Shown: positions 578 through 32,475 of the stretch, one piece after another
How positions within the stretch are numbered: position 1 is the first letter of the stretch
Layout: every line of letters starts with the position of its first letter
Assembly: GCA_019671135.1 (NCBI GenBank)
Contig: JAHRHY010000001.1
Location: 4,092,001 to 4,156,000 of the forward strand
Source of the DNA: Linnemannia hyalina
Lineage: Eukaryota; Mortierellomycota; Mortierellomycetes; Mortierellales; Mortierellaceae
Length of the DNA: 64,000 bases
Direction of reading: 5' to 3'
Translations under genes and position numbers: made by a program
Notes under the pieces: generated by a model
The model's input: the letters and a program-made list of their open reading frames with translations, nothing else
Database searches by the model: none
What the model was told of the DNA's origin: nothing

Positions 578-1380
578 GTACATAATTGTATTTCTCTAAC
601 AAACAGCATAGAGAAGTTATTTGGAAGTAAAAAGGGACTACAGACCAAACTCTTCAGTGCACCATCCACCAGTTGCAGTCCGGTCCGGAACCTGGCTCTG
701 CGCAACAATTGTCGCTGCTCCTCACAGCTTAAACGGAAGAAAATAAAACTAGATACGAATGGAGGGGATTCTTCCCATCCTCTCCATCATTGACAACCTC
801 CTCCTTCCTAACAAACTCTCCAACAACCGCTCGTCAGCAGCGCGTGGGTCCTTGGTCGCCCCAGGGCACCTTCCTTCACAATGTGTGGCTAGCGAAGCGC
901 CACACGGACAGAAACCATCGTGCGTGATGTAACCGTATCCTTGACTCCAGTCACCTCGGGGGCCTGTGTACTTGGATGTCTTGTCCTTGGCAGAGATGCC
1001 CTGGCTTTGTTCCCACGCGATCGTCGCGGAGCACCGAGGTTTCCAGATCAGCTCCGAGGCCTGCGCCTCCAGGTAGCCAACAAATTTGTGAAGGACTGTC
1101 TTGGCGATGGACATTGGGGTTCGGAAGACCGCGGACCATTCAGTCAACATGCTCAAGGGGGTGATGCCGCGGAGGAGATCCGACACATTCCACATCGGTT
1201 TCTCGTCTCGATCGAGAGCTGGACTACCGCTGTGCACGGCTCGAGCTCCACCGATGGAGGAAAATCCTCGTACATGATCTGCATCCGAAGGGGGCCACCA
1301 GTATATGGGTACTGGCCTCGGTACCTGACGATCTCTGTCCACCGCGCGTTTGTATTCTCGCTTCCTGGCCGCGTTGTGTC
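578..1380 (-). mobile_element. LINE copy 1, 5'-truncated, oldest in cluster 1
   Basis: This is a 3' fragment of the RNase H-bearing LINE family on the minus strand. It carries the 3' UTR, with the AATAAA-containing terminal segment near 578-600, and about 200 codons of the C-terminal domain ('GDWSQGYGYITHDGF...'). Unlike the other copies it has lost its poly-T, and it has several substitutions, which suggests it is the oldest copy. Its native sequence is recognisable up to 'gcgttgt' at 1377. Copy 2 inserted at 1380/1381, and copies 3 and 4 stacked further right, so the original right flank of copy 1 now lies at about 6786-6900, beside tRNA-His. No target-site duplication could be found for this copy. 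Confidence 0.85.
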
Positions 1381-1848
1381 TTTTTTTTTTTTTTTCGTAC
1401 ACAATTTTATTTCTCTAACAAACAGCATAGAGAAGTTATTTGGAAGTAAAAGGGAACTACAGACCAAACTCTTCAGTGCACCATCCACCAGTCGCAGTCC
1501 GGTCCAGAACCTGGCTCTGCGCAACAATTGTCGCTGCTCTTCACAGCTTAAACGGAAGAAAATAAAACTAGATACGAATGAAGGGGATTCTTCCCATCCT
1601 CTCCATCATTAACAACCTCCTCCTTCCTAACAAACTCTCCAACAACCGCTCGTCAGCAGCGCGTGGGTCCTTGGTCGCTCCAGGGCACCTTCCTTCATCA
1701 TGTGTGGCTAGCGAAGCGCCACACGGACAGAAACCATCGTGCGTGATGTAACCGTATCCTTGACTCCAGTCACCTCGGGGGCCTGTGTATTTGGATGTCT
1801 TGTCCTTGGCAGAGATGTCCTGGCTTTGTTCCCACGCGATCGTCGCGG
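1381..1848 (-). mobile_element. LINE copy 2, short 5'-truncated insertion in copy 1
   Basis: The copy opens with a 15-base poly-T (1381-1395), the complement of its poly-A tail. The conserved 3' UTR and the extreme C-terminal coding part follow, and it breaks off within the native sequence 'cgatcgtcgcgg' near 1848. It is flanked by a 14-bp target-site duplication GGCCGCGTTGTGTC at 1367-1380 and 1847-1860, which overlaps the element by two ambiguous bases. The duplicated target is native sequence of copy 1, so copy 2 is nested in copy 1. It is too short to encode an intact domain. Confidence 0.85.
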
Positions 1849-2065
1849 CCGCGTTGTGTCTTGAGCTCGCATCGTCTTTTTTTTTTTTTTTTTTGTACAC
1901 AATTTTATTTCTCTAACAAACAGCATAGAGAAGTCATTTGGAAGTAAAAGGGAACTACAGACCAAACTCTTCAGTGCACCATCCACCAGTCGCAGTCCGG
2001 TCCAGAACCTGGCTCTGCGCAACAATTGTCGCTGCTCTTCACAGCTTAAACGGAAGAAAATAAAA

Positions 2066-5000
2066 CTAGATACGAATGAAGGGGATTCTTCCCATCCTCT
2101 CCATCATTGACAACCTCCTCCTTCCTAACAAACTCTCCAACAAACGCTCGTCAGCAGCGCGTGGGTCCTTGGTCGCCCCAGGGCACCTTCCTTCACAATG
2201 TGTGGCTAGCGAAGCGCCACACGGACAGAAACCATCATGCGTGATGTAACCGTATCCTTGACTCCAGTCACCTCGGGGGCCTGTGTACTTGGATGTCTTG
2301 TCCTTGGCAGAGATGCCCTGGCTTTGTTCCCACGCGATCGTCGCGGAGCACCGAGGTTTCCAGATCAGCTCCGAGGCCTGCGCCTCCAGGTAGCCAACAA
2401 ACTTGTGAAGGACTGTCTTGGCGATGGACATTGGGGTCCGGAAGACCGCGGACCATTCAGTCAACATGCTCAAGGGGGTGATGCCGCGGAGGAGATCCGA
2501 CACATTCCACATCGGTTTCTCGTCTCGATCGGGAGCTGGACTACCGCTGTGCACGGCTCGAGCTCCACCGATGGAGGAAAATCCTCGTACATGATCTGCA
2601 TCCGAAGGGGGCCACCAGTGTATGGGTACTGGCCTCGGTACCTGACGACCTCTGTCCACCGCGCGTTTGTATTCCCGCTTCCTGGCTGCGTTGTAGCTGT
2701 TTGTCGCCTGCACACCCCACTCATTAATCTTGCCCATGGCCTCCTTCCAGATCTCAGTGGTGGTCTCAGCTGCCGAAGGGCATTTCCAGACGTGATCGTT
2801 ATCCTCCTTCTCGAGCTCGCATCGTCGGCACACGCATGTTGGGTACAGGTTGGGCTTGCGAGCCTGCATGGAGTTCAGAGTGGGCAGCATTCCATGCAGC
2901 TTTTTGATGTGATGTGTTCTTTGATGGGAGTCCTTGCTGTTGCTGTAAAAGGTGAAGACTGCGTGCCTGTCGTGGACATAAGCCAAGGTCGAGTTCCATT
3001 CCACGTCCTCGATGTCAGGGATCGCCCTCTTGACCCGCCTCTGTGACGTCCAGGCCTGATGGTGACGGATTGTCGATTGTTGTTTGAGGAGCTGACGTAG
3101 ATCGATTTCAACAATCCCGCCGTAACAATGTGCAAAGGTCGTGATATCCGTCTGTTGAGTGAGATCCACCATCCAGGGCACTGAACCACTCTGTGCTGCC
3201 ACCTTCGCCGCCTGATCCGCAAGTTCGTTTCCGTGGATGTTGCTGTGACCTTTGATCCACACCACCTCAACCCCGCCTGGCCGAGATTCCACAACCTGCC
3301 AAAGCACCGCCCAGATACCCGCATATGTACTCCTGAATCGCTTCCTCGGTAAGGTGTCCCGACGATTCTTCACCAGGCGACTATACTGTTCCACCACTGA
3401 CTGATTGTCCAGCTTGACCACAATGTCCTGTTCCGGTGGTGCTGACAAGACTGCGGCTAATAAGGAGGCCTTTCAAGTCCAAATTATCATATGGTGTTTG
3501 TTACATCTCTGCAGATCTTGACGATATCCACCGCGTCCATTAGAGGAGAGTGTATGTATGATATCAACCATTTAAAACAACCACTGTAACATTCCTTGCG
3601 CGATTATCCTACTAAACACAACTACATTCTCCAAACAACAAAGTCTTCTTATTTTTCGCACACCAAACTCTTGAATATGTCCATCTACTATTAACCTGTA
3701 ACCCTCACTGCAAGATTCGACAGAGTAGTTCTTGTATGTGATCATCTAAAGCACTTGTATTCCCAACTGTATCTTTGTCGTGAAATACAGGGGAGAGATT
3801 ACATTTTAAAAATTCTTGTGCTGTCTATTGCTATTTTATTCTGTGTTCTGTTGCCCACTATGAAGAGATATGCCAGTTATGGAAGTCAACACTCCGTTCC
3901 TTGGACTTTGGATATTTTTTATATGCCTTTTTATATCCTCTGCACATGAAGGGGCCGCTAAGCCCATGAGCTCGGCCTTAGCCGAGGATGCGTGACCGTC
4001 CGTTCGTCCTTGTACTGTCAGAGGGTTGTCCTGAGTGAGATCCACCACTCCAAAGGCCTGGGATACTTCTAGCGTTCCCGAGTTCAGAAGAGATCCGTCA
4101 GAGTACAGGGCGCGAGGGGTGGAGTTGTCGACGTGTGTGTCCTGAACTACGCGCATGGACGCCGCCTCTACTGGAGACAGGCAAAGGGGGCCGATCTGTG
4201 TGGTCGGGGGTCCTGGTACTGGCGGTGGTTGGACTTGATGGCGTTCTTGCAAAGGAAAGCTAGCATCTGTGTCAAAGGCTGGCTTGTATCGTGGTTTCGT
4301 TTCCTTGAGGCTGGATAGGATCTCTTTTAGGCGGGCGACGACCAAGCGGTGTTGTTGACGGAGTGCTTCCTTTTCCTTTTTTTGCTGCAGTCTCCTGGCT
4401 TGGGAGGATTCCAGCTGTTGCACCCTCAGTCGATAGTCCTCTGCTTTCCTGATCAGCCTGATCTCCAAATCCGAGCGAAGAGAGACAAGGCGATGAGCAC
4501 GGTATTCGTTGACGGCCTCGGTGGCCCGGCGACGTATCCCAAGGGCGACGGTCTTGCGACGACTAGAAATGGACTTGATGCGGGCGGCTGCGTTGTCGGC
4601 CTGAGTATTGGTCATCAAAAGAATGGCAGCCAGTTCTTGTGGTTTCCTGGCAAGTTGACTCCGGTATCGGCTTCTGAGTCCATCATACTTTGTGTTGTCT
4701 GCCGACTGTTTTTTCCTGGTGTCGCTGTTGATGCGAAGGATCTCGGCATCGTATTCGGCCGCGGGACGGAGGAGACGCTCTCTGCAAGCGTCGTCCAGTG
4801 TGTTGACTGCTCGCTCAAAGACAAGATCGGTTGTATCAGGCGGGAGAGGTGAGGGGATGGCGAGAGTTGCTGGAGTGGGGGTGGTGAGAGTTGCTGGAGT
4901 GGGGGAGAATGTTGGAGTAGGGGGACATGTTGGAGTGTTAGGAGTGTTGGGTGGTGGAGTACCTGTCAGAGAAGGGCCGGGACTCAAAACTGGAGTTGGA

Positions 5001-5270
5001 ACAGTGACAGGCGAAAGAGCCGGCGATGAGACGGGACTCGAGACTGGAGCAGGAACGACGACCTGCGAAAGGACTGGAGACGATAATAGCGAAGGAGGAG
5101 TGGATGAGAGTGAAGGAGATGGTGACTGAGGAGAAGGTGACTGAGGAAAGATTGACTGAGGAAAGATTGACTGAGGGAGAGAGAGGAGAGAAGGAAGAGA
5201 AGAGAGAGAAGAGAGAGAAGAGAGAGAAGAGAGAGAAGAGAGAGGAGAGGGAGAAGAGAGAGAAGATAGA
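2066..5270 (-). pseudogene. ORF2 3' part of LINE copy 3, split by a MITE
   Basis: Minus-strand coding sequence reads from about 5270 down to 2066 and is split by the MITE at 3464-3958. The upper half gives a Ser/Pro/Thr-rich linker, a charged coiled coil ending in one QARRLQQKKEKEALRQQH-type unit, and the start of RNase H with SDGS and KAELMGL. The lower half (2066-3448, 460 codons) gives the rest of RNase H (KLDNQSVV, WIKGHSNIHGNELADQAA), a CxCxxC...HxxxxC zinc-binding motif and the C-terminal domain. The MITE interrupts the frame between the RNase H motifs, and the reverse transcriptase is missing, so this copy cannot be autonomous. Copy 6 has the same domains uninterrupted. Confidence 0.85.
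3464..3958. mobile_element. MITE copy M1 (PIF/Harbinger-like), inserted in LINE copy 3
   Basis: This is a 495-bp AT-rich non-coding insertion. The empty site is preserved in LINE copy 6 (gcggctaataagccc). Comparison shows an exact 3-bp duplication TAA at 3461-3463 and 3959-3961. The ends GGAGGCC...GGCCGC form imperfect terminal inverted repeats, about 11 of 17 positions matching. A 3-bp TWA duplication is characteristic of PIF/Harbinger transposons. Two further copies, in inverse orientation, lie at 16230-16723 and 18559-19052 with the same length. No transposase is encoded, so it would be mobilised in trans. Confidence 0.8.
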
Positions 5271-6770
5271 TTTTTTTTTTTTTTCGTACACAATTTTATT
5301 TCTCTAACAAACAGCATAGAGAAGTTATTTGGAAGTAAAAGGGGACTACATACCAAACTCTTCAGTGCACCATCCACCAGTCGCAGTCCGGTCCAGAACC
5401 TGGCTCTGCGCAACAATTGTCGCTGCTCTTCACAGCTTAAACGGAAGAAAATAAAACTAGATACGAATGAAGGGGATTCTTCCCATCCTCTCCATCATTG
5501 ACAACCTCCTCCTTCCTAACAAACTCTCCAACAAACGCTCGTCAGCAGCGCGTGGGTCCTTGGTCGCCCCAGGGCACCTTCCTTCACAATGTGTGGCTAG
5601 CGAAGCGCCACACGGACAGAAACCATCATGCGTGATGTAACCGTATCCTTGACTCCAGTCACCTCGGGGGCCTGTGTACTTGGATGTCTTGTCCTTGGCA
5701 GAGATGCCCTGGGTCTGCTCCCACGCGATCGTCGCGGAGCACCGAGGTTTCCAGATCAGCTCCGAGGCCTGCGCCTCCAGGTAGCCAACAAACTTGTGAA
5801 GGACTGTCTTGGCGATGGACATTGGGGTCCGGAAGACCGCGGACCATTCAGTCAACATGCTCAAGGGGGTGATGCCGCGGAGGAGATCCGACACATTCCA
5901 CATCGGTTTCTCGTCTCGATCGAGAGCTGGACTACCGCTGTGCACGGCTCGAGCTCCACCGATGGAGGAAAATCCTCGTACATGATCTGCATCCGAAGGG
6001 GGCCACCAGTGTATGGGTACTGGCCTCGGTACCTGACGACCTCTGTCCACCGCGCGTTTGTATTCCCGCTTCCTGGCTGCGTTGTAGCTGTTTGTCGCCT
6101 GCACACCCCACTCATTAATCTTGCCCATGGCCTCCTTCCAGATCTCAGTGGTGGTCTCAGCTGCCGAAGGGCATTTCCAGACGTGATCGTTATCCTCCTT
6201 CTCGAGCTCGCATCGTCGGCACACGCATGTTGGGTACAGGTTGGGCTTGCGAGCCTGCATGGAGTTCAGAGTGGGCAGCATTCCATGCAGCTTTTTGATG
6301 TGATGTGTTCTTTGATGGGAGTCCTTGCTGTTGCTGTAAAAGGTGAAGACTGCGTGCCTGTCGTGGACATAAGCCAAGGTCGAGTTCCATTCCACGTCCT
6401 CGATGTCAGGGATCGCCCTCTTGACCCGCCTCTGTGACGTCCAGGCCTGATGGTGACGGATTGTCGATTGTTGTTTGAGGAGCTGACGTAGATCGATTTC
6501 AACAATCCCGCCGTAACAATGTGCAAAGGTCGTGATATCCGTCTGTTGAGTGAGATCCACCATCCAGGGCACTGAACCACTCTGTGCTGCCACCTTCGCC
6601 GCCTGATCCGCAAGTTCGTTTCCGTGGATGTTGCTGTGACCTTTGATCCACACCACCTCAACCCCGCCTGGCCGAGATTCCACAACCTGACAAAGCACCG
6701 CCCAGATACCCGCATATGTACTCCTGAATCGCTTCCTCGGTAAGGTGTCCCGACGATTCTTCACCAGGCG
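5271..6770 (-). mobile_element. LINE copy 4, 5'-truncated insertion nested in copy 3
   Basis: This 1.5-kb LINE copy begins with poly-T at 5271-5284 and is truncated at 'cttcaccaggcg' (6770), inside the RNase H domain. A perfect 14-bp target-site duplication AGAGAGAAGATAGA flanks it (5257-5270 and 6771-6784). The duplicated target lies in the GA-rich 5' end of copy 3, so this is the youngest insertion in the cluster. It is nearly identical to copies 3 and 6. The left end is about 1.6 kb from the tRNA, but before insertion the target was only 116-130 bp upstream of tRNA-His. Confidence 0.9.
5457..6770 (-). pseudogene. RNase H C-terminal half and C-terminal domain of LINE copy 4
   Basis: The frame is open on the minus strand from the truncation point at 6770 to the TAG at 5457. 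It encodes the last part of RNase H (WIKGHSNIHGNELADQAA), the zinc motif CVCRRCELEKEDNDHVWKC and the C-terminal cysteine-rich domain. The first three catalytic acidic residues of RNase H and all upstream domains are missing. The open frame continues upstream by chance through flanking DNA and antisense to tRNA-His. That extension is not coding. Confidence 0.85.
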
Positions 6771-6900
6771 AGAGAGAAGATAGAGGAGCTCGCATCGTCG
6801 GGAGAAGGTCCAAAAACGTTCTGAGGGGCCCCAGGAGGGTCCCAGACGGTTCCCGAGTTTCATAGTATTCAAATAGGTCACAAAATTACGATTTCCACAA

Positions 6901-6972
6901 GCCAATATAGTATAATGGTTAGTATATCTCGTTGTGGCCGAGACGATCCTGGTTCGATTCCAGGTGTTGGCA
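6901..6972 (+). tRNA. tRNA-His (GTG)
   Basis: This is an intronless 72-nt tRNA. The acceptor stem GCCAATA pairs with TGTTGGC, the D-arm region is TAGTATAATGGTTAGTA, and the anticodon stem TCTCG/CGAGA encloses loop TTGTGGC with anticodon GTG. The T-arm is CCTGG-TTCGATT-CCAGG and the discriminator base is A. The B box GGTTCGATTCC is canonical. A run of seven T at 6998-7004 is a plausible Pol III terminator. The LINE stack ends about 100 bp upstream. A TGTCAGAATA-type repeat begins about 60 bp downstream. Confidence 0.95.
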
Positions 6973-9183: not shown

Positions 9184-9444
9184 TTTTTTTCTGCTTTTTT
9201 TTTTACCTGTACACAATTTTATTTCGCTGACAAAACAGCACAGAAAAGGCATTTGGAAGTAAAAGGGAACTACACACCAAACTCTTCGGTGCGCCATCCA
9301 TCAGTTGTAGTCCGGTCCAGAACCTGGCTCTGCACAACAATTGTTGCTGCTCTTCACAGCTTAAACGGAAGAAAATAAAACTAGATACGAATGAAGGGGA
9401 TTCTTCCCATCCTCTCCATCATTGACAACCTTCTCCTTCCTAAC
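9184..9444 (-). mobile_element. LINE copy 5, short old 3' fragment split by copy 6
   Basis: An interrupted poly-T (9184-9204) precedes a divergent version of the LINE 3' UTR and the last codons of the C-terminal domain. The copy is interrupted at 9444 by copy 6 and resumes at 15307-15321 ('aaactctccaacaaa'), where it stops. It therefore totals only about 275 bp. It is more diverged than copies 3, 4 and 6, so it is older than the element inserted in it. Its right border lies about 104 bp upstream of tRNA-Thr. No flanking duplication was found. Confidence 0.8.
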
Positions 9445-9630
9445 TTTTTTTTTTTTTTCGTACACAATTTTATTTCTCTGACAAACAGCATAGAGAAGTT
9501 ATTTGGAAGTAAAAGGGAACTACAGACCAAACTCTTCAGTGCACCATCCACCAGTCGCAGTCCGGTCCAGAACCTGGCTCTGCGCAACAATTGTCGCTGC
9601 TCTTCACAGCTTAAACGGAAGAAAATAAAA

Positions 9631-12600
9631 CTAGATACGAATGAAGGGGATTCTTCCCATCCTCTCCATCATTGACAACCTCCTCCTTCCTAACAAACTC
9701 TCCAACAAACGCTCGTCAGCAGCGCGTGGGTCCTTGGTCGCCCCAGGGCACCTTCCTTCACAATGTGTGGCTAGCGAAGCGCCACACGGACAGAAACCAT
9801 CATGCGTGATGTAACCGTATCCTTGACTCCAGTCACCTCGGGGGCCTGTGTACTTGGATGTCTTGTCCTTGGCAGAGATGCCCTGGGTCTGCTCCCACGC
9901 GATCGTCGCGGAGCACCGAGGTTTCCAGATCAGCTCCGAGGCCTGCGCCTCCAGGTAGCCAACAAACTTGTGAAGGACTGTCTTGGCGATGGACATTGGG
10001 GTCCGGAAGACCGCGGACCATTCAGTCAACATGCTCAAGGGGGTGATGCCGCGGAGGAGATCCGACACATTCCACATCGGTTTCTCGTCTCGATCGAGAG
10101 CTGGACTACCGCTGTGCACGGCTCGAGCTCCACCGATGGAGGAAAATCCTCGTACATGATCTGCATCCGAAGGGGGCCACCAGTGTATGGGTACTGGCCT
10201 CGGTACCTGACGACCTCTGTCCACCGCGCGTTTGTATTCCCGCTTCCTGGCTGCGTTGTAGCTGTTTGTCGCCTGCACACCCCACTCATTAATCTTGCCC
10301 ATGGCCTCCTTCCAGATCTCAGTGGTGGTCTCAGCTGCCGAAGGGCATTTCCAGACGTGATCGTTATCCTCCTTCTCGAGCTCGCATCGTCGGCACACGC
10401 ATGTTGGGTACAGGTTGGGCTTGCGAGCCTGCATGGAGTTCAGAGTGGGCAGCATTCCATGCAGCTTTTTGATGTGATGTGTTCTTTGATGGGAGTCCTT
10501 GCTGTTGCTGTAAAAGGTGAAGACTGCGTGCCTGTCGTGGACATAAGCCAAGGTCGAGTTCCATTCCACGTCCTCGATGTCAGGGATCGCCCTCTTGACC
10601 CGCCTCTGTGACGTCCAGGCCTGATGGTGACGGATTGTCGATTGTTGTTTGAGGAGCTGACGTAGATCGATTTCAACAATCCCGCCGTAACAATGTGCAA
10701 AGGTCGTGATATCCGTCTGTTGAGTGAGATCCACCATCCAGGGCACTGAACCACTCTGTGCTGCCACCTTCGCCGCCTGATCCGCAAGTTCGTTTCCGTG
10801 GATGTTGCTGTGACCTTTGATCCACACCACCTCAACCCCGCCTGGCCGAGATTCCACAACCTGACAAAGCACCGCCCAGATACCCGCATATGTACTCCTG
10901 AATCGCTTCCTCGGTAAGGTGTCCCGACGATTCTTCACCAGGCGACTATACTGATCCACCACTGACTGATTGTCCAGCTTGACCACAATGTCCTGTTCCG
11001 GTGGTGCTGACAGGACTGCGGCTAATAAGCCCATGAGCTCGGCCTTAGCCGAGGATGCGTGACCGTCCGTTCGTCCTTGTACTGTCAGAGGGTTGTCCTG
11101 AGTGAGATCCACCACTCCAAAGGCCTGGGATACTTCTAGCGTTCCCGAGTTCAGAAGAGATCCGTCAGAGTACAGGACGCGAGGGGTGGAGTTGTCGACG
11201 TGTGTGTCCTGAACTACGCGCATGGACGCCGCCTCTACTGGAGACAGGCAAAGGGGGCCGATCTGTGTGGTCGGGGGTCCTGGTACAGGCGGTGGTTGGA
11301 CTTGATGGTGTTCTTGCAAAGGAAAGCTAGCATCTGTGTCAAAGGCTGGTTTGTATCGTGGTTTCGTTTCCTTGAGGCTGGATAGGATCTCTTTTAGGCG
11401 AGCGACGACCAAGCGGTGTTGTTGACGGAGTGCTTCCTTGTCCTTTTTCTGCTGCAGTCTCCTGGCTTGGTGTTGTTGACGGAGTGCTTCCTTTTCCTCT
11501 TTCTGCTGCAGTCTCCTGGCTTGGTGTTGTTGATGGAGTGCCTCTGTTTCTTTCTGCTGTTGCAGTTTCCTGGCTTGGGAGGATTCCAGCTGTTGCACCC
11601 TCAATCGATAGTCCTCTGCTTTCCTGGTCAGCCTGATCTCCAAATCCGAGCGAAGAGAGACAAGGCGATGAGCACGGTATTCGTTGACGGCCTCGGTGGC
11701 CCGGCGACGTATCCCAAGGGCGACGGTCTTGCGACGACTAGAAATTGACTTGATGCGGGCGGCTGCGTTGTCGGCCTGAGTATTGGTCATCAAAAGAATG
11801 GCAGCCAGTTCTTGTGGTTTCCTGGCAAGTTGACTCCGGTATCGGCTTCTGAGTCCATCATACTTTGTGTTGTCTGCCGACTGTTTTTTCCTGGTGTCGC
11901 TGTTGATGCGAAGGATCTCGGCATCGTATTTGGCCGCGGGACGGAGGAGACGCTCTCTGCAAGCGTCGTCCAGTGTGTCGACTGCTCGCTCAAAGACAAG
12001 ATCGGTTGTATCAGGCGGGAGAGGTGAGGGGGTGGTGAGAGTTGCTGGAGTGGGGGTGGTGAGAGTTGCTGGAGTGGGGGAGAATGTTGGAGTAGGGGGA
12101 CATGTTGGAGTGTTAGGAGTGTTGGGTGGTGGAGTACCTGTCAGAGAAGGGCCGGGACTCAAAACTGGAGTTGGAACAGTGACAGGCGAAAGAGCCGGCG
12201 ATGAGACGGGACTCGAGACTGGAGCAGGAACGACGACCTGCGAAAGGACTGGAGACGATAATAGCGAAGGAGGAGTGGATGAGAGTAAAGGAGAAGGTGA
12301 CTGAGGAGAAGGTGACTGAGGAAAGATTGACTGAGGGAGAGAGAGGAGAGAAGGAAGAGAAGAGAGAGAAGAGAGAGAAGAGAGAGGAGAGAGAGAAGAG
12401 AGAGGAGAGAGAGAAGAGAGAGGAGAGAGAGAAGAGAGAGGAGAGAGAGAAGAGAGAGGAGAGAGAGAAGAGAGAGAAGGATCAAAGAGAATAGAAGAGA
12501 TTGGCGCAGAGAAAAGATCAAGAGGGTTGAAATTGGAGAACGAAGAGAGGGGAAGCAAAGAAAGAGGGGCAAGGGAAAAAGAAGTAGAAAGAAGAGGAGG

Positions 12601-15294
12601 AAATATAGGAGGAGAAGAAGATATAAAGAGGGAAGACGATTGATTGACAATAAAAGAAGAAACGTCAAAAATAAGAGAGGTATCGGAAGAGAAAGGTACA
12701 CCCAAGTGGGGCACAGACGACAAAAGAGAAGATAACAAAGGATTGGAAGAGAAAGAAGAAGAGGAAGAAGAAGAGGAGGAAAAAGTAACAAGTGGCTCAC
12801 AAGGCAAGGCAGGACAAACATCCGACTCTGCGGCAGCGGGAAAGGAAAAAGAAGAGGAAGAGGACGCGTAAAAGGAATCATAAAAGGACAGAGAAGAAAG
12901 AAAAGAAGATGAAGAAGAACCAGAGCATGACCCTTGCAGGCAACACTCCTTACCCCACGCCCTCTTATCGTTAACAAAACCTGCCTTGCCAATAACAAAC
13001 CCATTCCCACGCTCATCTATGCGTTCAATTGCGCGTGTCGTTTTTGTCTTGGTCGATAAAAAAATTTCTTGTCCTTTTTTCTTTTTGTCCCTCAAGGATG
13101 TGTCCGGGTATAATAACCCCCTGTTATCGCGCTGGACCTTTTTTCTTTTTGTGTTTTCTTTATACACACCCTCAAGTCTCACCTCATCACCTCCATGGCT
13201 TTTCTTACCGCGACCCTCGCCAACATCAGCACCACCACCACCTTCAGCAAAAACTGATGGAGCTGCAGTCGCCAAAGGTTGGAGGCATACCTGTATGGGG
13301 TCGACAGACGTACCAAGGTCTAGTACTGTCGTTGCGGTGGTTCTGTTAAACGCAAAGGCACGAGCTGGAGAAACGATCTCCACGCCTCTTTGTTGCCCTC
13401 GTCGGCGTTCGATGGCCCGATTGATCAATGGCTCTTCCTCGGAGGAGTCGCCGTCTTCGTACAACACCTCTGGACTTGCAGGCGTAATAGAATGGCCCTC
13501 CTCGACGATAAGGGAAGACGCCGGGGCGTCGACGGAGGCAGCAGCTGGCATAGCCAAGGTGACGACTTTCACCAGTTCCTTGAACCAACGGCGGACAGGA
13601 CCTTTCAAATTGTACTGTGCTCGGATATCCTGCCATGGAGCCAGAGATTGGCCATCGTCTGTCGACACATCATCCAGAGTGACAACTCCGTCCACAAAGA
13701 GTCGGTGGGCGATTTTTGGGTATCCGCCTGGGGGCATAAGGAGGCCGATGTATCGAGAAACGTTGACAGGGATCCCTGGCGACTGGAAGGTGATACCCCT
13801 CTCGACCATGAGGCGGCAAACGTGTCCGAAGAAATTGTTGCGAAGGAATTGAGCTCCAATGGTTGGTACGTCAAAGGGGGATATCGTAAGGCGGCACTCT
13901 GCTTGATGGGCTGTTGCTCGAGACGCCATCACCATGCCCAGCAGCTCCTGGTCGTTTAGCCGCAGATGTGCAGTTGAAACTTGCTCCTCGATCATGGCAT
14001 CTTCAAGGTCTCGGAGACCGTACAGTCGACGATGGAACAGGATGCTGGCCGGCGAGCCGAGGGGCAGCCCCACCTTCTGGCGAACGACGTTGGTGTACTG
14101 GCTGACAATGGTCTTTGTCTCGCGAGGGCTAAGGATTGTCACTGACAACCGGTAAAGTATCCGTGGCAGTAGAACATTATTGAAGATGTAAATGCACTGC
14201 TTGTCGGTGATAGCCTTCCGCGAGAGTATCTGACACATCGTTGACACCTCCTCCTTCACTAGCCGGCGTGTATGGGCTCCCTTTCCGTCAGCAGAGAACC
14301 ACACACCCAGGACCCTGGCAGCAGTGCCAGGAGGTAGAGCGGTCACCGTATCCGCACCGAGTCTAATAGAGGAATCAGCAGAGGTAGAATTGACCACGAT
14401 TAGTTCTGATTTTTTTGGGTTAATCTCAATACCATGTAATTGAAAGAAACTCATCGCTTTGTTTGTGATCTCTTGTAGCTTAGCCTTAGACGGTGCTATC
14501 CAGTCCGTGTCGTCCATGAAGGCAAGGCAGGCAATGCGGAGCGGGGTGTCAGGATGCAGTGAGTCGAACGTTGGGATCTTGTGGAACGCCTGCAGGTCAG
14601 CCCTGTTAACCATAGGGTAGCCGAGGTTGGACTGCCAGATCTGGGCGAGGAGTACTTCATAGACGATGCGCCAAAGTAGGGGACACTCTACTCCACCCTG
14701 ATCCAGGCCGCAGAGAGGAGAGTATTCTTCCGTAAGTCCGTATGCGGTGATGATACGATTGGTCTTGTTTCTCGCGACGTAAAGGCACAGGTCGATGAAC
14801 CCCTGTGGGATCTTGAGATGTCGCAGACCGAGTTCCAGCATTCCACCTCTCTGACACGATACCGAATCAAAGCACCGCTTCATGTCCTGCAGCAGCACCC
14901 AGACCTCTTTCTTGTACTCTCTGGCGTCCTCGAGAACCGCGTTCAGGATATGGATCGGGTCCTTGGTCATGGTTCCCTTGAGCACTGAGAAGTTGGGGCC
15001 GCGAAAGATGGAGTGGCGAGACAGCACCACGGTAAGCCGTTTCACCATGATGGAGAAGAATATCTTCCTGCCGTGCTCCAAAAGTGTGATAGGGCGTACC
15101 TCACTAATCCTTCCCGACCACACCGGCCCTTTCGGTATGCAATAGATCACCCCCTTCAGCCAATCCTCCGGCATCGCTCCTTGTACAAAGCACGCCTGAA
15201 CTAGGACGACAAAAAGTGCTTGGGCAAGGGGGCCAAGCCGCTTCAAAAGATCTCCTGACACCTTCGAATGTCCTGGTGCCTTGCCTGTTGGATC
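9631..15294 (-). CDS. LINE ORF2 polyprotein, N-terminally truncated (RT, coiled coil, RNase H, zinc motifs)
   Basis: The frame is open from the truncated 5' border to the TAG at 9631, about 1885 codons, with no native start. Residue numbers below count from the GTG codon at 15261. Domains in order: reverse transcriptase 1-300, with KAPG just upstream, LLQDMKRCFDSV (motif A Asp about 126), GLDQGGVECPLLW, and FMDD (248-251) as the catalytic motif; a Ser/Leu/Pro-rich low-complexity linker about 760-1100; a charged coiled coil about 1110-1330 with three QARRLQQKKEKEALRQQH-type repeats; RNase H about 1360-1510 with all four acidic residues (SDGS, KAELMGL, KLDNQ, HGNELADQ); a CxCxxC...HxxxxC zinc motif near 1627; and a second CPC...H...C cluster near 1829. 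RNase H downstream of RT fits the I/Tad group of LINEs. The exact clade was not determined. It would reverse-transcribe its own RNA at the target, but this copy lacks the endonuclease. Confidence 0.88.
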   Translation of the reverse strand, partial: DPTGKAPGHSKVSGDLLKRLGPLAQALFVVLVQACFVQGAMPEDWLKGVIYCIPKGPVWSGRISEVRPITLLEHGRKIFFSIMVKRLTVVLSRHSIFRGPNFSVLKGTMTKDPIHILNAVLEDAREYKKEVWVLLQDMKRCFDSVSCQRGGMLELGLRHLKIPQGFIDLCLYVARNKTNRIITAYGLTEEYSPLCGLDQGGVECPLLWRIVYEVLLAQIWQSNLGYPMVNRADLQAFHKIPTFDSLHPDTPLRIACLAFMDDTDWIAPSKAKLQEITNKAMSFFQLHGIEINPKKSELIVVNSTSADSSIRLGADTVTALPPGTAARVLGVWFSADGKGAHTRRLVKEEVSTMCQILSRKAITDKQCIYIFNNVLLPRILYRLSVTILSPRETKTIVSQYTNVVRQKVGLPLGSPASILFHRRLYGLRDLEDAMIEEQVSTAHLRLNDQELLGMVMASRATAHQAECRLTISPFDVPTIGAQFLRNNFFGHVCRLMVERGITFQSPGIPVNVSRYIGLLMPPGGYPKIAHRLFVDGVVTLDDVSTDDGQSLAPWQDIRAQYNLKGPVRRWFKELVKVVTLAMPAAASVDAPASSLIVEEGHSITPASPEVLYEDGDSSEEEPLINRAIERRRGQQRGVEIVSPARAFAFNRTTATTVLDLGTSVDPIQVCLQPLATAAPSVFAEGGGGADVGEGRGKKSHGGDEVRLEGVYKENTKRKKVQRDNRGLLYPDTSLRDKKKKGQEIFLSTKTKTTRAIERIDERGNGFVIGKAGFVNDKRAWGKECCLQGSCSGSSSSSFLSSLSFYDSFYASSSSSFSFPAAAESDVCPALPCEPLVTFSSSSSSSSSFSSNPLLSSLLSSVPHLGVPFSSDTSLIFDVSSFIVNQSSSLFISSSPPIFPPLLSTSFSLAPLSLLPLSSFSNFNPLDLFSAPISSILFDPSLSSLSPLSSLSPLSSLSPLSSLSPLSSLSPLSSLSSLSSLPSLLSLPQSIFPQSPSPQSPSPLLSSTPPSLLSSPVLSQVVVPAPVSSPVSSPALSPVTVPTPVLSPGPSLTGTPPPNTPNTPTCPPTPTFSPTPATLTTPTPATLTTPSPLPPDTTDLVFERAVDTLDDACRERLLRPAAKYDAEILRINSDTRKKQSADNTKYDGLRSRYRSQLARKPQELAAILLMTNTQADNAAARIKSISSRRKTVALGIRRRATEAVNEYRAHRLVSLRSDLEIRLTRKAEDYRLRVQQLESSQARKLQQQKETEALHQQHQARRLQQKEEKEALRQQHQARRLQQKKDKEALRQQHRLVVARLKEILSSLKETKPRYKPAFDTDASFPLQEHHQVQPPPVPGPPTTQIGPLCLSPVEAASMRVVQDTHVDNSTPRVLYSDGSLLNSGTLEVSQAFGVVDLTQDNPLTVQGRTDGHASSAKAELMGLLAAVLSAPPEQDIVVKLDNQSVVDQYSRLVKNRRDTLPRKRFRSTYAGIWAVLCQVVESRPGGVEVVWIKGHSNIHGNELADQAAKVAAQSGSVPWMVDLTQQTDITTFAHCYGGIVEIDLRQLLKQQSTIRHHQAWTSQRRVKRAIPDIEDVEWNSTLAYVHDRHAVFTFYSNSKDSHQRTHHIKKLHGMLPTLNSMQARKPNLYPTCVCRRCELEKEDNDHVWKCPSAAETTTEIWKEAMGKINEWGVQATNSYNAARKREYKRAVDRGRQVPRPVPIHWWPPSDADHVRGFSSIGGARAVHSGSPALDRDEKPMWNVSDLLRGITPLSMLTEWSAVFRTPMSIAKTVLHKFVGYLEAQASELIWKPRCSATIAWEQTQGISAKDKTSKYTGPRGDWSQGYGYITHDGFCPCGASLATHCEGRCPGATKDPRAADERLLESLLGRRRLSMMERMGRIPFIRI
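11415..11590 (-). repeat. 54-bp tandem repeat in the LINE coiled coil
   Basis: About three head-to-tail units of 54 bp encode variants of QARRLQQKKEKEALRQQH. Copy 3 has a single unit at the same place (about 4345-4400). The unit keeps the reading frame and a coiled-coil-like charge pattern. The copy-number difference between otherwise near-identical LINE copies shows recent expansion or contraction. Confidence 0.8.
12340..12480 (-). repeat. GA-rich microsatellite coding for Ser/Leu repeats in the LINE
   Basis: A purine tract of agagagaagag-type units encodes an in-frame Ser-Leu-Ser repeat on the minus strand (SLSSLSPLSSLSPL-like). The corresponding tract in copy 3 (5165-5270) differs in length and was the insertion target of copy 4. 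In-frame GA expansion explains the low-complexity protein segment. Confidence 0.8.
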
Positions 15295-15425
15295 CTCCTT
15301 CCTAACAAACTCTCCAACAAATATACTGCTTGGACTACGTCACCGCTTCTCTTGATCGCTGCTGCTCAAGTTGGTGGCGTCAGATGAAAAGTAGATCGTT
15401 TCTGTCATCCATTCATATCCACTTT

Positions 15426-15497
15426 GCCCGCTTAGCTCATTGGTAGAGCGTCTGCCTAGTAAGCAGAAGGTAGCAGGTTCGATCCCTGCAGTGGGCA
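15426..15497 (+). tRNA. tRNA-Thr (AGT)
   Basis: This is an intronless 72-nt tRNA. The acceptor stem GCCCGCT pairs with AGTGGGC (one G-T pair), the A box is TAGCTCATTGG, and the anticodon stem TCTGC/GCAGA encloses loop CTAGTAA with anticodon AGT (A34 is normally converted to inosine). The T-arm is GCAGG-TTCGATC-CCTGC and the discriminator base is A. A TTTT at 15536-15539 could terminate Pol III. LINE cluster 2 ends 104 bp upstream. An array of TCTGACA repeats starts about 90 bp downstream. Confidence 0.95.
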
Positions 15498-15582
15498 CTT
15501 TCATATCATCTCATCAATCAAGTGATGAGTTCTTGTTTTGTTCCTCTTCGGAGCAAGGGACGACTGACAGCTCGTAGTGCAC

Positions 15583-15870
15583 GGATGAAGATATTCTGAC
15601 TGTAATGTCAGATTACTTATTCTGACATTACAGTCAGATTATCCAGATATTTTGACAGCGTGTCAGATTAACTAGATATTCTGACATTACAAAAAGATAT
15701 TCTGACAATGGATGTCAGAATATCTTTGCCTCACAGAAGCTAATCTGACAGCACTAATGTCAGATTATCCACCTACAAAAAGATATTCTGACAACATGCT
15801 TTTGGAGACATGTCAGAATATCTTTTTGTGCTGTCAGAATAGCTGCTGTGTTCTCATACAGTTAACGACG
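15583..15870. repeat. Array of TCTGACA/TGTCAGA motifs (R3)
   Basis: Within about 260 bp roughly fourteen instances of the heptamer TCTGACA or its complement occur, usually extended to ATATTCTGACA or TGTCAGATTA. The two orientations alternate, forming many small dyads. Spacing is irregular, so it is not a CRISPR or simple microsatellite array. The end of the array (15797-15870) matches 7039-7075 downstream of tRNA-His. No coding potential was seen. Confidence 0.65.
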
Positions 15871-16229: not shown

Positions 16230-16723
16230 GCGGCCTCTCCATGTGCAAAGGAGATAACAAGGCATATACAAAATATCCAAAGCCCAAGGAATACAGTGTT
16301 GACTTCCATAGCTGATGTATCTCTTTAAAGTCGGCAATAGAACATGAAATAAAATAGCAATAGATAGCACATGTTTTTTTAAAATGTAATCTCTCCCCTG
16401 TATTTCACGACAAAATACAGCTGAGGATACAAGTGCTTTAGATGATCACATACAAGAAGTACTCCCCTTGATCTTGCAGTGAAGGTTACAGTTTAATAGT
16501 AGATGGACACATTCAAGAGATTGGTGTGCGAAAAATAAGAAGACTTTGTTGTTTGGAGAATAGGTTGGTGTTTAGTGGGATAGTTATGCAAGGAATGTTA
16601 CAGTGGTTGTTTTACATGGTGGATATTATACATACACTCTCCTCTAATGGTCGTTGTAGATATTGTCAAGGTCTGCAGAGATGTAACATATACTATATTA
16701 CAATTTGGACTTGAAAGGCCTCC
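16230..16723. mobile_element. MITE copy M2
   Basis: This is a 494-bp copy of the same family as M1, in inverse orientation, starting GCGGCCTCTCC and ending AAAGGCCTCC. The flanking trinucleotide ATT is present on both sides (16227-16229 and 16724-16726). It is not the TWA expected for PIF/Harbinger, so mutation or chance is possible. Small open frames within it are not conserved in M1 or M3, so the element is non-coding. Confidence 0.75.
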
Positions 16724-17275: not shown

Positions 17276-18558
17276 GTGATCGTGGGGTGGGGTAATGTTG
17301 TGCAGGTGGTAGGGAGGATTGTTGTGTAGCGGGTAACGGTGGGGTGGGGATAAGGGCGATAAGTGGGTGTTGTGTGAAGGCGACCAAGGGACGGACCACT
17401 TGAGGATGGGCCCTCAGAAGATGGGCCATCAGCGGACGAGGGGATGGAGGACAATGCTATAGGGTGAGCGCCAGGCCATGGTATATAGGACCGATAGTGG
17501 AAGTGTGGTGGAGTGGATTTAAAAGGAGATAAGGAGCTTGAGTAATTTGACAAAAACTAAACAGCGCTCTCAAGCAACGTTAGCATGTTGACAATAACCT
17601 GTTCTTGTTCGCCATGCGTTTTGTTCGGCTCGCTTCCATCCATTTCATATTACGAGGGTTGGAAACTTTTGGATGGAAGCGAGCCTAGCGTTTTGTCCTC
17701 TTTTTGGACAAAGCTGTTGGCGTGTTGGGACTCCCATATTCTGTTACCTCTACTTGTTTCACATGTATGCATGTATATCTTTCTTGCCATTTTTCCTTCT
17801 ACCACCTCTCTCTGTGTTCCATGTTTCATGTCTTTCTTCGTGCTGCAGCGCAAGCAGCTACTGCCGGCCGTAGGTTGGTCGTTTCCATAAAAGTAAAATA
17901 GGCAAAACGACCAATCTCCATAAAAGTAAAATTAGAAAAACGGGCACCTTCCATGAAAGTAAAATTAGGCCAAAACGACCAGGCGAATTCAGACTTGAGA
18001 TCTTTTTTTACATCAGCAATAGCTTTTCTCACAGGCATCCGAATGCGATGGGAGTAGTTGTATTGGATAGAAGGCCATCTACGCTTTCTCCCTGTATCAC
18101 TCTCAGGGCGCCAGGCTGGGTAGATCTCATTCGGCAGCCAGAAAACATCATTTTGGACACTAGACTCGGCCTGAGCACTATAGCTAAATAATTTTGGTGG
18201 TGGTAACGTCATGATTATTTTTTGTTGGTCGTTTCCTTAAAGGTACAGTCGAAAGTGGTTTTTATGGTCATTTCCACTATCAAACTGACCGCAAAAACCA
18301 CTTTCGACTGTAAAGGCTGGGTCTTCCTTTAGTTGTAAATTGGGAAGGATATGAACTATGTACGCGTGAGTTTTCTTATCCTCTCCATTAAAGATAGACG
18401 CGTTACCACCTTAACTACATCTCCACCAGCACTAGTAATCGGGCCTTCCTTCCTTCCTTAATTATGCCCCCTGTGTAGTAATATAATCTTTCTCTCTTTA
18501 TGGCTCGCCCATCCCTCCTTTTCAGTACCCTTCGTCCTTGGGCATTTCATCTTTTTTA
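17276..18558. other. Repeat-rich gene-free stretch with hairpins
   Basis: It contains a perfect 16-bp inverted repeat (17627-17642 and 17670-17685), three near-tandem CCATAAAAGTAAAAT units (17885-17970), direct copies of TTGGTCGTTTCC near 17876 and 18224, and a long hairpin at 18245-18311. A minus-strand frame at 17990-18212 (DVFWLPNEIYPAWRPE...) lies between the TTGGTCGTTTCC copies and may be a fragment of a mobile-element protein, but no family was recognised. Confidence 0.4.
18245..18311. repeat. 24-bp imperfect inverted repeat (hairpin)
   Basis: The arm beginning ACAGTCGAAAGTGG at 18245-18268 is complementary to 18288-18311 at 22 of 24 positions, with a 19-base loop. It directly follows a TTGGTCGTTTCC repeat. 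It may be the two ends of a very short palindromic element or a replication or recombination hairpin. Confidence 0.7.
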
Positions 18559-19052
18559 GCGGCCCCTCCATGTGCAGAGGATATAAAAAAGCATATAAAA
18601 AATATCCAAAGTCCAAGGAACGGAGTGTTGACTTCCATAACTGACATATCTCTTCATAGTGGGCAATAGAACACAGAATAAAATAGCAATAGACAGCACA
18701 AGATTTTTTAAAATGTAATCTCTCCTCTGTATTTCGCTCCAAAGATACAGTTGAGAGTACAAGTGTTTTAGATGATCAGATACAAGAACTACCCTGCTGA
18801 ATCTTGCAGTGGGGGGTACAGTTTAATAGTAGATGGAGACATTCAAGAGATTGGTGTGCAAAAAATAAGAAGACTTTGTTGTTTGAAGAATATCATAGTA
18901 TTTAGTAGGATAGTTAACAAAAAATGTTACAATGGTTGTCTTACATGCTTGGTATCATATATACATTCTCATCTCATAGTCGCTATGGATATCATCGAGA
19001 TCTACAGAGATGTAACAAACACCATATGATAATTTGGACGTGAAAGGCCTCC
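18559..19052. mobile_element. MITE copy M3
   Basis: This is a third 494-bp copy of the M1/M2 family, same orientation as M2, starting GCGGCCCCTCC and ending AAAGGCCTCC. The left flank is TTA, the expected PIF/Harbinger target. The right flank is CTT and does not match. It abuts the R4 repeat, so the right side may have rearranged after insertion. M1 and M3 share long identical stretches. Confidence 0.75.
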
Positions 19053-19515: not shown

Positions 19516-19517
19516 TC

Positions 19518-28611: not shown

Positions 28612-28785
28612 CTATTCGATGGTGTGGCGAACATGATGGCGAAGCGATGGATCGGTTCTGAGCTTGTGCAGAGCGGTAAATAGACCGAAAGCGAGACCAC
28701 CAGACACGAAGGTAATAAGAGGCACGATGTCCTTGGACGGCTTCATGCCTCGAGAGGCTTGTTGGAGGAGTCGAGCAGTATGCAT
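28612..28785 (-). CDS. B12D / NADH-ubiquinone reductase MLRQ-subunit-like small protein
   Basis: This 57-residue protein starts at the ATG at 28785 (MHTARLLQQASRGMKPSKD). The open frame extends further upstream, but that part is a poly-Phe shadow of a T-rich leader. After a short basic N-terminus comes 'DIVPLITFVSGGLAFGLFTAL', a single membrane segment, then 'HKLRTDPSLRHH'. The PL...G...F...R.DP.LR pattern fits the B12D/MLRQ (NDUFA4-like) family of single-span inner mitochondrial membrane proteins tied to complexes I or IV. Fungal members are usually 60-100 residues, so it is at the short end. No intron is needed. The role in the respiratory chain is inferred from the family. Confidence 0.65.
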   Translation of the reverse strand: MHTARLLQQASRGMKPSKDIVPLITFVSGGLAFGLFTALHKLRTDPSLRHHVRHTIE

Positions 28786-30121: not shown

Positions 30122-30583
30122 CTTTGTTGTCGTTATATTTTGGGGAGGTGTTCAAGGAGGAGGATGAGGGGAGAGGGGATGTTATGTGCGGGAAGATGCG
30201 AGAGAAATGGGAGAAAGAGGGAGAAAGAAGAAAAGACGAGAGAAAAAGTGGGAGATGGGAAATTTTTTATCAGGGGTGGGCAATTTGTTTTGATGGAGAC
30301 GCAGGATTCGCTGCAGTAGGAAGTTAGAATGATGACGAAAGCGATTCAGGCATTCCCATAGTCAGGAAAAAAAATGTTTATTTTTTCGTAGTTGCTATTG
30401 ATGACCTCGCCGCGTCGTTGAAGGAAAAAAAAATGCAGACAGTCAGGGCTACTTTCGTTCACTTACTTGTAAGAAAAGAAGAGGCAAGCAGCCTGCAGCA
30501 AAGAAGCGTACCAAGGCGAACGAAAAAAAGACGTGCCTTTCACTCCACCAACAGCTAAAAGTAAAGAAAACACAAAAAGAGAA
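30122..30583. other. Intergenic between HTH gene and tRNA-Phe
   Basis: Purine-rich on the plus strand up to about 30265, consistent with a pyrimidine-rich 5' leader of the minus-strand HTH gene. Beyond that it is AT-rich with A runs, and a stretch of five A at 30574-30578 is the Pol III terminator of the minus-strand tRNA. No LINE was seen on this downstream side of the tRNA. Confidence 0.45.
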
Positions 30584-30608
30584 TGCGACCTGTGTGGATT
30601 GAACACAC

Positions 30609-30649
<41 letters not shown>

Positions 30650-30656
30650 AGGTCGC
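30584..30656 (-). tRNA. tRNA-Phe (GAA)
   Basis: This is an intronless 73-nt tRNA on the minus strand. The acceptor stem GCGACCT pairs with AGGTCGC, the A box is TAGCTCAGTTGGG, and the anticodon stem TCAGA/TCTGA encloses loop CTGAAGA with anticodon GAA. The T-arm is TGTGTTCAATCCACA and the discriminator base is A. TTTTT follows 5 bases past the 3' end region (plus-strand A run at 30574-30578). A LINE copy starts 154 bp upstream of its 5' end, in divergent orientation. Confidence 0.95.
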
Positions 30657-30809
30657 TTAGAAACTTGATCTTCAAGCTCGATGATTTCTTAGATTCTCTG
30701 ACCTATATGAACTCACAATACAGCAATCGATCACGTGCATGCACGTGATATTTGCGCCACCAAAATCGGGTGGGAGGCTGGGCTGGGCCGTAAGGAAAAG
30801 ATGTCCATC

Positions 30810-32475
30810 TGGTGGATCTCACTCAGGACAACCCTCTGACAGTACAAGGACGAACGGACGGTCACGCATCCTCGGCTAAGGCCGAGCTCATGGGCTTATT
30901 AGCCACAGTCTTGTCAGCACCACCGGAACAGGACATTATGGTTAAGCTGGACAATCAGTCAGTGGTGGAACAGTATAGTCGCCTGGTGAAGAATCGTCGG
31001 GACACCTTACCGAGGAAGCGATTCAGGAGTACATATGCAGGTATCTGGGCGGTGCTTTGGCAGGTTGTGGAATCTCGGCCAGGCAGGGTCGAAGTGATGT
31101 GGGTCAAAGGACACAGCAACATCCATGGAAACGAGCTTGCGGATCAGGCGGCGAAGGTGGCAGCACAGAGTGGTTCGGTGCCCGTGATGGTGGATCTCAC
31201 TCAACAGACGGATATCACGGCCTTTGCACATTGTTACGGCGGGCTTGTTGAAATCGATCTACGTCAGCTCCTCAAACAACAATCGACAATCCGTCACCAT
31301 CAAGCCTGGACATCACAGAGACGGGTCAAGAGGGCGATCCCTGACATCGATGACGTGGAATGGAACTCGACCTTGGCGTATGTCCACGACAGACATGCAG
31401 TCTTCACTTTTTACAGCAACAGCAAGGACACCCATCAACGAACACATCACATCAAAAAGCTGCATGGAATGCTGCCCACTCTGAACTCCATGCAGGCTCG
31501 CAAGCCCAACCTGTACCCAACATGCGTATGCCGACGATGCGAGCTCGAGAAGGAGGATAACGATCATGTCTGGAAATGCCCCTTGGCAGCTGAGACCACC
31601 ACTGAGATCTAGAAGGAGGCCATGGGCAAGATTAATGAGTGGGGTGTGCAGGCGACAAACAGCTACAACGCAGCCAGAAAGCGGGAATACAAACGCGCGG
31701 TGGACAGCGGTCGTCAGGTACCAAGGCCAGTACCCATACACTGGTGGCCCCCTTCGGATGCGGATCATGTACGAGGATTTTCCTCCATCGGTGGAGCTCG
31801 AGCCGTGCACAGCGGTAGTCCAGCTCTCGATCGAGACGAGAAACCGATGTGGAATGTGTCGGATCTCCTCCGCGGCATCACCCCCTTGAGCATGTTGACT
31901 GAATGGTCCGCGGTCTTCCGAACCCCAATGTCCATCGCCAAGACAGTCCTTCACAAATTTGTTGGCTACCTGGAGGCGCAGGCCTCGGAGCTGATCTGGA
32001 AACCTCGGTGCTCCGCGACGATCGCGTGGGAACAAAGCCAGGGCATCTCTGCCAAGGACAAGACATCCAAGTACACAGGCCCCCGAGGTGACTGGAGTCA
32101 AGGATACGGTTACATCACGCACGATGGTTTCTGTCCGTGTGGCGCTTCGCTAGCCACACATTGTGAAGGAAGGTGCCCTGGGGCGACCAAGGACCCACGC
32201 GCTGCTGACGAGCGGTTGTTGGAGAGTTTGTTAGGAAGGAGGAGGTTGTCAATGATGGAGAGGATGGGAAGAATCCCCTTCATTCGTATCTAGTTTTATT
32301 TTCTTCCGTTTAAGCTGTGAAGAGCAGCGACAATTGTTGCGCAGAGCCAGGTTCTGGACCGGACTGCGACTGGTGGATGGTGCACTGAAGAGTTTGGTCT
32401 GTAGTCCCCTTTTACTTCCAAATAACTTCTCTATGCTGTTTGTCAGAGAAATAAAATTGTGTAGGAAAAAGAAAG
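30810..32475 (+). mobile_element. LINE copy 7, 5'-truncated, near tRNA-Phe
   Basis: This plus-strand copy starts abruptly in the RNase H N-terminal part ('tggtggatctcactcagg') and runs through the C-terminal domain and 3' UTR to 'aaattgtgtaggaaaaagaaag', a degraded poly-A. Several residues differ from copies 3, 4 and 6. No clean target-site duplication was recognised. The truncated 5' end faces the tRNA-Phe 5' end, the same geometry as clusters 1 and 2. Confidence 0.88.
30812..32293 (+). pseudogene. RNase H and C-terminal domain of LINE copy 7, with nonsense mutation
   Basis: The frame covers most of RNase H (KAELMGL, KLDNQSVV, WVKGHSNIHGNELADQAA), the zinc motif and the C-terminal domain. 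It lacks the first catalytic Asp (SDGS), which is upstream of the truncation. A TAG at 31610-31612 replaces the Trp codon of 'TTEIW' found in the other copies, splitting the frame into 30812-31612 and 31622-32293. This copy is defective in both truncation and nonsense mutation. Confidence 0.88.

Follow-up and report, generated by a model that had tools for sequence, protein, structure and literature searches.

A LINE of the fungus Linnemannia hyalina that very probably inserts at a set distance upstream of RNA polymerase III genes

What determines where a long interspersed nuclear element (LINE) comes to rest? The question is raised by a stretch of 64,000 nucleotides from Linnemannia hyalina (contig JAHRHY010000001.1; hereafter the window, meaning this whole stretch), in which three transfer RNA (tRNA) genes are paired with three clusters of copies of one LINE, a pairing that the original prediction had read from the letters and on which ARAGORN, Infernal and BLAST agree. 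Our answer, held with high confidence, is that the element is a non-LTR (long terminal repeat) retrotransposon with an apurinic/apyrimidinic endonuclease (APE) and RNase H, which uses target-primed reverse transcription to insert at one set place upstream of RNA polymerase III (Pol III) genes. Copies in the window were found by BLAST with the copy at 9458-15301 as query (the reference copy, to which identities refer), and the tRNA genes by ARAGORN and Infernal:

6901..6972, plus strand: tRNA-His(GTG), target gene of cluster 1
15426..15498, plus strand: tRNA-Thr(AGT), target gene of cluster 2
30584..30656, minus strand: tRNA-Phe(GAA), target gene of cluster 3
577..1377, minus strand: LINE copy 1, outermost in cluster 1, 5'-truncated, 97% identical
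1395..1848, minus strand: LINE copy 2, 5'-truncated, 97%
1895..5270, minus strand: LINE copy 3, 5'-truncated, 96-99% by piece, split by a 494-bp repeat at 3465-3958
5284..6771, minus strand: LINE copy 4, youngest in cluster 1, 99.8%, border to tRNA-His 129 bp
9209..9444, minus strand: LINE copy 5, outer copy, 94%
9458..15301, minus strand: LINE copy 6, the reference copy, 5844 bp, 5'-truncated in the reverse transcriptase region
9631-15261: part of open reading frame 2 (ORF2) of LINE copy 6, with RVT_1 and RNase_H
15293..15321, minus strand: remnant of an older LINE copy, border to tRNA-Thr 104 bp
30810..32463, plus strand: LINE copy 7, 97%, border to tRNA-Phe 153 bp
6770..6784, partner 5256-5270: 15-bp target-site duplication of copy 4, near edge 116 bp from tRNA-His
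1847..1860, partner 1367-1380: 14-bp target-site duplication of copy 2
15295..15306, partner 9433-9444: 12-bp target-site duplication of copy 6, near edge 119 bp from tRNA-Thr

As had been claimed, each of the seven copies is 5' of its tRNA and points its own 5' end toward that gene. The innermost aligned borders are 129 bp from tRNA-His, 104 bp from tRNA-Thr and 153 bp from tRNA-Phe; the earlier values were identical for tRNA-Thr and 154 bp for tRNA-Phe, while the 101 bp given for tRNA-His counts about 16 bp of further LINE-like sequence, seen by eye beside copy 4 at about 6786-6801. Judged by the duplications, copy 4 inserted 116-130 bp and copy 6 119-130 bp upstream, which bears out the sites proposed for them.

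The ORF of the reference copy (9631-15261) matches the Pfam profiles RVT_1 (E=4.8e-16) and RNase_H (E=4.5e-11), separated by a gap of about 1070 residues that contains long serine-rich, low-complexity stretches. The 5' part of ORF2 absent from this copy is supplied by locus L053, whose translation aligns to residues 2-601 of the protein P0002, its endonuclease half (E=1e-117, 35.8% over 620 residues). P0002 carries Exo_endo_phos at 42-275 in addition to RVT_1 and RNase_H, and by this alignment an APE-type endonuclease is predicted upstream of the reverse transcriptase (RT). The element further has the RT domain, poly(A) 3' end, variable 5' truncation and target-site duplication of a LINE. By eye, an upstream frame in L053 seems to overlap the start of ORF2 via TAATG. 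Homologues among the 26 matches listed were mostly on short contigs, the best at 54%, and those naming an organism came from Entomortierella parvispora (44%) and Linnemannia elongata (37%). Copies at three different loci (L042, L043 and L004) share a near-identical 5' truncation point (reference 4872-4873), perhaps an RT pause site.

To place the window in context, we searched the genome (51.5 Mb, 50 contigs) for LINE 3' ends with a 37-base pattern, allowing at most 3 mismatches, and obtained 143 matches (76 and 67 on the two strands), 100 of them listed; the reversed pattern, used as a control, gave 0 matches. The 100 listed matches and 6 extra positions make 106 LINE 3' ends in 78 clusters. 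The sequence inspected consisted of 42 contiguous stretches including the window, two of them extended afterwards. Clusters with the 5' edge outside this sequence were excluded (C4, C8, C15, C22 and C23:468834), and those on contigs C29, C42 and C44, which represent one common insertion, were counted once. This gave 42 clusters judgeable at the 5' edge, including a lone opposite-strand fragment (L017/L038), a LINE at tRNA-Lys in L045 and a non-autonomous copy at tRNA-Arg in L039.

The arrangement seen in the window recurs across the genome. In 36 of the 42 clusters a gene is faced from upstream in divergent orientation, be it a tRNA gene, a tRNA-Ala gene that has been cut or one that is tRNA-like; in 32 it is an intact tRNA gene. 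The LINE border lies 104-223 bp from an intact tRNA in 29 clusters (median 148, quartiles 138 and 157), 25 of them within 119-160 bp, and the genes belong to 12 isotypes (Ser, Ala, Arg, Lys, Leu, His, Thr, Phe, Tyr, Asp, Val and Ile). In L045 a 30th border lies 115 bp from a tRNA-Lys that contains an intron, and two further clusters have a non-autonomous relative innermost, 140 bp from tRNA-Glu and about 215 bp from tRNA-Arg. Elsewhere the gene faced is the first 25 nt of a tRNA-Ala cut by another insertion (at 139 bp in L034 and 131 bp in L044) or a degenerate tRNA-like gene (at about 141 bp in L016 and about 150 bp in L013-L015), whose A- and B-box-like stretches were recognised by eye only (L013, L016). 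Of 74 copies examined, a script detected in 27 a duplication of 11-16 bp following an A-rich stretch, and for the 18 innermost ones at intact tRNAs the near edge is 116-213 bp from the gene (median 136), with 15 of the 18 at 116-146 bp. The range of 100-155 bp first proposed is thereby corrected to about 116-146 bp for the near edge of the duplication and 104-223 bp for the LINE border. Two flanks fetched later as a check of the prediction (the next 300 bases) both contained the expected gene, a tRNA-Ala at 149 bp and a tRNA-Asp at 129 bp. The claim of a fixed upstream distance and divergent orientation thus holds genome-wide, over 12 isotypes, in the duplications and in the new flanks, and fails for six of the 42 clusters, which lack a canonical tRNA at that place.

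As the original prediction held, such spacing is not random. A border placed at random would meet a divergent tRNA at 100-225 bp with a probability of 0.19%, and at least 30 of 42 clusters in that position then gives P ~1e-71, a value computed with all 1552 first-look candidates taken as tRNAs and with the clusters treated as independent, which some are not. When the 63 best-scoring of these candidates were compared with the 106 LINE 3' ends by coordinates alone, a 3' end within 8 kb was upstream and divergent at 12 of them and in the other arrangements at 3, 1 and 1, and 47 had none. On 16 contigs of known length 11 were observed, whereas 1000 trials of random placement there averaged 0.73 and never exceeded 5.

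A pattern of this kind could also arise after the event, if insertion were random and copies survived only in gene-free tRNA neighbourhoods. Some copies should indeed be lost through selection against gene disruption, and two young ones (L001 and L012) do sit elsewhere. Still, 8 of the 10 innermost copies with at least 99.4% identity (the reference included) already follow the pattern, and the other three tRNA arrangements are nearly empty (3, 1 and 1 of 63 versus 12 of 63), so we consider survivorship extremely unlikely. We give equally little credence to the multiplication of a few tRNA-plus-LINE units by duplication: some loci are indeed paralogous (C29, C42 and C44 are one insertion, and the tRNA-Ala flanks of L032 and L034 resemble each other), yet isotypes, truncation points and duplications differ at most loci.

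Because insertion is repeated between the tRNA and the older copies, the arrays are ordered by age, each newcomer standing between the gene and the previous copy, and they thereby order insertions in time. A script defined 16 arrays from copies of 150 bp or more that have a 3' end. Among their 28 neighbouring pairs, the copy closer to the tRNA bears the greater similarity to the reference in 26 (sign test 1.5e-6), and in all 16 arrays the first copy exceeds the last; identity to one reference serves as a rough clock, and the pairs of one array cannot count as independent of one another. Of the two reversals, one is false, the script having chained the His and Thr clusters of the window together. 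A wider, hand-typed list gave 31 of 34 pairs with the nearer copy younger, the reversals being on C4, C9:137184 and C17:537974. On contig C16 of the genome (G000 C16:195406-196126 and 198462-199523), LINE 3' ends recur every ~342 bp in two mirrored groups, and one of these repeated ends faces a tRNA at 199900.

From what does the element measure its distance? LTR retroelements beside the same genes bear on this:

L018:649 onwards: LTR retroelement
L043:7406 onwards: LTR retroelement
L040:3796-4524: LTR retroelement

The LTR starts 8 bp upstream of tRNA-Leu in L018 and 11 bp upstream of tRNA-Thr in L043. Coordinates place two further LTR starts, on C8 at 16 bp from a tRNA and on C22 at 6 bp from a 5S ribosomal RNA (5S) gene, again on the upstream side. 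This spacing of 6-16 bp rests on four places, the flanks of most other LTR copies lying outside the inspected sequence; on C2, about 513 bp separate the start of another copy from the closest tRNA known. LINEs inside the LTRs that start 8, 11 and 16 bp from the tRNA lie 124, 138 and about 120 bp from the gene, the last value, on C8, coming from coordinates alone. Since the LINE keeps its distance inside an LTR that has replaced the flank, the ruler is the Pol III gene and not the local sequence.

The same evidence bears on the idea, which we judge quite improbable, that the flanks of tRNA genes carry a sequence motif or DNA structure read by the endonuclease, such as TTGGTGGCG, CACGTG or T-tracts. 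GGTGGCG/CGCCACC and CACGTG are indeed enriched, each being found in 10 of 31 tRNA-LINE flanks versus means of 0.2 and 0.6 after mononucleotide shuffling. However, they were rejected as the insertion target because each is absent from 21 of the 31 flanks; moreover, the distance is held inside older LINE copies as well as inside the flank-replacing LTRs, and the targets span 12 isotypes. Both motifs occur mostly 50-105 bp upstream of the tRNA, in the window at about 15373 and 30755 among other places, and are possibly a host tRNA upstream element.

The target appears to extend beyond tRNA genes. A non-autonomous element of ~1.05 kb has a tail stretch ~81% like that of the LINE, with 13 tail matches genome-wide:

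L045:4520-5576: non-autonomous element upstream of tRNA-Glu
L039, about 2434-3504: non-autonomous element upstream of tRNA-Arg
L054: non-autonomous element upstream of a 5S gene

The copy at the 5S gene is 113 bp away from it and has a 14-bp duplication. Because of this case and of two insertions at a degenerate tRNA-like gene, Pol III genes describe the target better than the tRNA genes named at first.

A number of observations weigh against this account. Six of the 42 clusters do not fit. The copy in L001 (99.7%, duplication present) has no tRNA within 1 kb, and by eye its flank has a helicase-like look; that in L012 (100%) is 344 bp past the 3' end of tRNA-Arg and that in L024 about 100 bp past the 3' end of tRNA-Ala; L050 has no tRNA within 7.6 kb, and the 225-bp fragment of L017/L038 none within its 644-bp flank. 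The LINE in L040 lies 118 bp past the end of a full LTR element with two LTRs (C1:3488049-3494496), a later insertion that may have pushed the tRNA away. L001 and L012 are among the youngest, making 2 of the 10 innermost copies of at least 99.4% without fit. A relaxed Rfam scan of eight loci without a canonical tRNA revealed no new tRNA, and at the gathering score the loci scanned gave tRNA matches only and no other Pol III gene. The extension to 5S and other Pol III genes is upheld by the one 5S gene with a non-autonomous relative, whereas a second 5S-based prediction failed, with no LINE at the 5S-like gene on C21 (L055), and two U6 matches had no LINE nearby among the 100 of 143 listed 3' ends. 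The sample, moreover, was non-random, comprising the 30 best 3'-end matches and 20 clusters, 18 of these in coordinate order on C1-C6; the tally of 36 of 42 was made by hand from script output, with some loci paralogous; and the duplication script required an A-rich stretch ahead, a duplication being recovered in only 27 of 74 copies.

The distances kept inside the LTRs and the 5S case, taken with the spacing, point to the Pol III initiation complex as the ruler. By analogy with TRE5-A of Dictyostelium (PMC5911963), the LINE proteins would dock on the assembled complex, on TFIIIB and perhaps through TFIIIC, and the endonuclease would nick the DNA one fixed step off, about one nucleosome length upstream; the ~1 kb non-autonomous element is probably carried by the same proteins, and the element would gain safe landing places. 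Alternatively, open or nucleosome-phased chromatin beside Pol III genes, as is said of Ty1, could be targeted with no contact to TFIIIB or TFIIIC. The preferred place about one nucleosome upstream would suit such targeting, as would the spread of 104-223 bp, which is wider than the 44-54 bp of TRE5 (PMC5911963). On the other hand, there is a single dominant position, side and orientation, with 25 of 29 borders at 119-160 bp and no ladder apparent, and we think this alternative unlikely. Within one of the targets, the tRNA-Ala(AGC) genes, a second LINE resides:

L044:4053-7248: second LINE, inside tRNA-Ala(AGC) after nucleotide 25
L034:7460-7484: second LINE, inside tRNA-Ala(AGC) after nucleotide 25

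The first 25 nt of tRNA-Ala(AGC) have 24 exact matches in the genome, of which 14 continue into the gene and 10 are orphans, and every orphan lies 5' of an intact tRNA-Ala on the same strand and contig, about 3 to 52 kb off. In L044, the DNA between orphan and intact gene encodes an RT and has no RNase H match. The 3' part of this second LINE has 12 matches, 11 of which abut the first base of the tRNA-Ala 25-mer without poly(A), and six intervals of 2.6-7.2 kb span from the element's end to an orphan 25-mer. The orphan 25-mers and flush 3' ends therefore indicate insertion after nucleotide 25 with a 25-bp duplication that restores the whole tRNA at the element's own 3' end. As the duplication rebuilds the tRNA, the insertion would heal itself and leave the same gene open to new hits, a further route to harmless insertion. 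The 120 relatives listed are endonuclease-RT proteins, many with PF13966 (which we take to be the zf-RVT domain) and none with PF00075; the second LINE is therefore not of the first LINE's type. We find it likely, with somewhat less assurance than the targeting itself, that in this fungus Pol III genes are landing places common to three or more unrelated kinds of retroelement, which differ in the ruler they use: LTR elements at 6-16 bp, the LINE at about 115-150 bp together with its non-autonomous relative, and the self-healing second LINE inside tRNA-Ala(AGC), a gene that can be hit again. The arrays would then form a datable stratigraphy tied to tRNA genes.

Some other features of the window may be recorded here. 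The 494-bp interspersed repeat that splits copy 3 (3465-3958) recurs at 16230-16722 and 18558-19051, with ~87-89% identity between copies, and is found at other loci too. Motifs of the form TGTCAGAATA at about 7056 and at 15618-15860 start 84 and 120 bp downstream of tRNA-His and tRNA-Thr, respectively, and are scarce in other loci. An ORF at 22720-24468 matches NDC10_II and perhaps belongs to a Crypton-type tyrosine recombinase element. The protein of 961 aa encoded at 52154-55039 shares 95% identity with one from Linnemannia elongata, and its other named matches of at least 48% come from Linnemannia, Mortierella, Podila, Dissophora and related genera, which belong to the Mortierellaceae.

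In the Creative Commons-licensed literature, outside which most subscription papers fall, we found no fungal LINE targeted to Pol III genes, only dictyostelid LINEs and yeast LTR elements, in agreement with the earlier statement that none is described for this fungal group. Closest in behaviour is TRE5 (TRE5-A) of Dictyostelium discoideum, a non-LTR element that inserts at a fixed distance upstream of tRNA genes in opposite orientation, and at 5S genes too (PMC5911963). The LINE described here shares the upstream position and orientation and works like TRE5, but falls outside it in distance and domain layout: TRE5 inserts 44-54 bp upstream (PMC5911963), compared with 116-146 bp in 15 of 18 cases and none below 116 here, and has an APE-RT-zinc finger layout without RNase H, in contrast to the RNase_H match at E=4.5e-11. 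The host of TRE5 is an amoebozoan, that of this LINE a fungus. NLTR-A and NLTR-B of dictyostelids are likewise found upstream of tRNA genes and combine APE, RT and RNase H (PMC5006619, PMC5911963), but insert 2-6 bp and ~50 bp upstream, respectively, and our element matches neither distance; its very long RT-RNase H linker and fungal host also set it apart. Ty1, Ty3 and other yeast LTR elements resemble it in being fungal and in using the 5' flank of Pol III genes (PMC7175516, PMC5911963), but those are LTR elements that carry an integrase, whereas the present element is a LINE that inserts through target-primed reverse transcription. Zorro3 of Candida albicans is, like it, a targeted fungal non-LTR element, but is directed to poly(A) sequences and not to Pol III genes (PMC7175516). 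For the second LINE, the parallel is with Dada-tA, which also inserts inside tRNA-Ala genes but is a DNA transposon with a 6-7 bp duplication, unlike the RT-encoding element with its 25-bp duplication rebuilding the tRNA (PMC3706591). In the literature found, tRNA-gene targeting by LINEs is confined to one amoeba group, and the fungal case is apparently independent; with its other domain layout and distance, an independent case would show that such targeting evolves repeatedly, and would offer a comparative handle on how LINE proteins read the Pol III complex.

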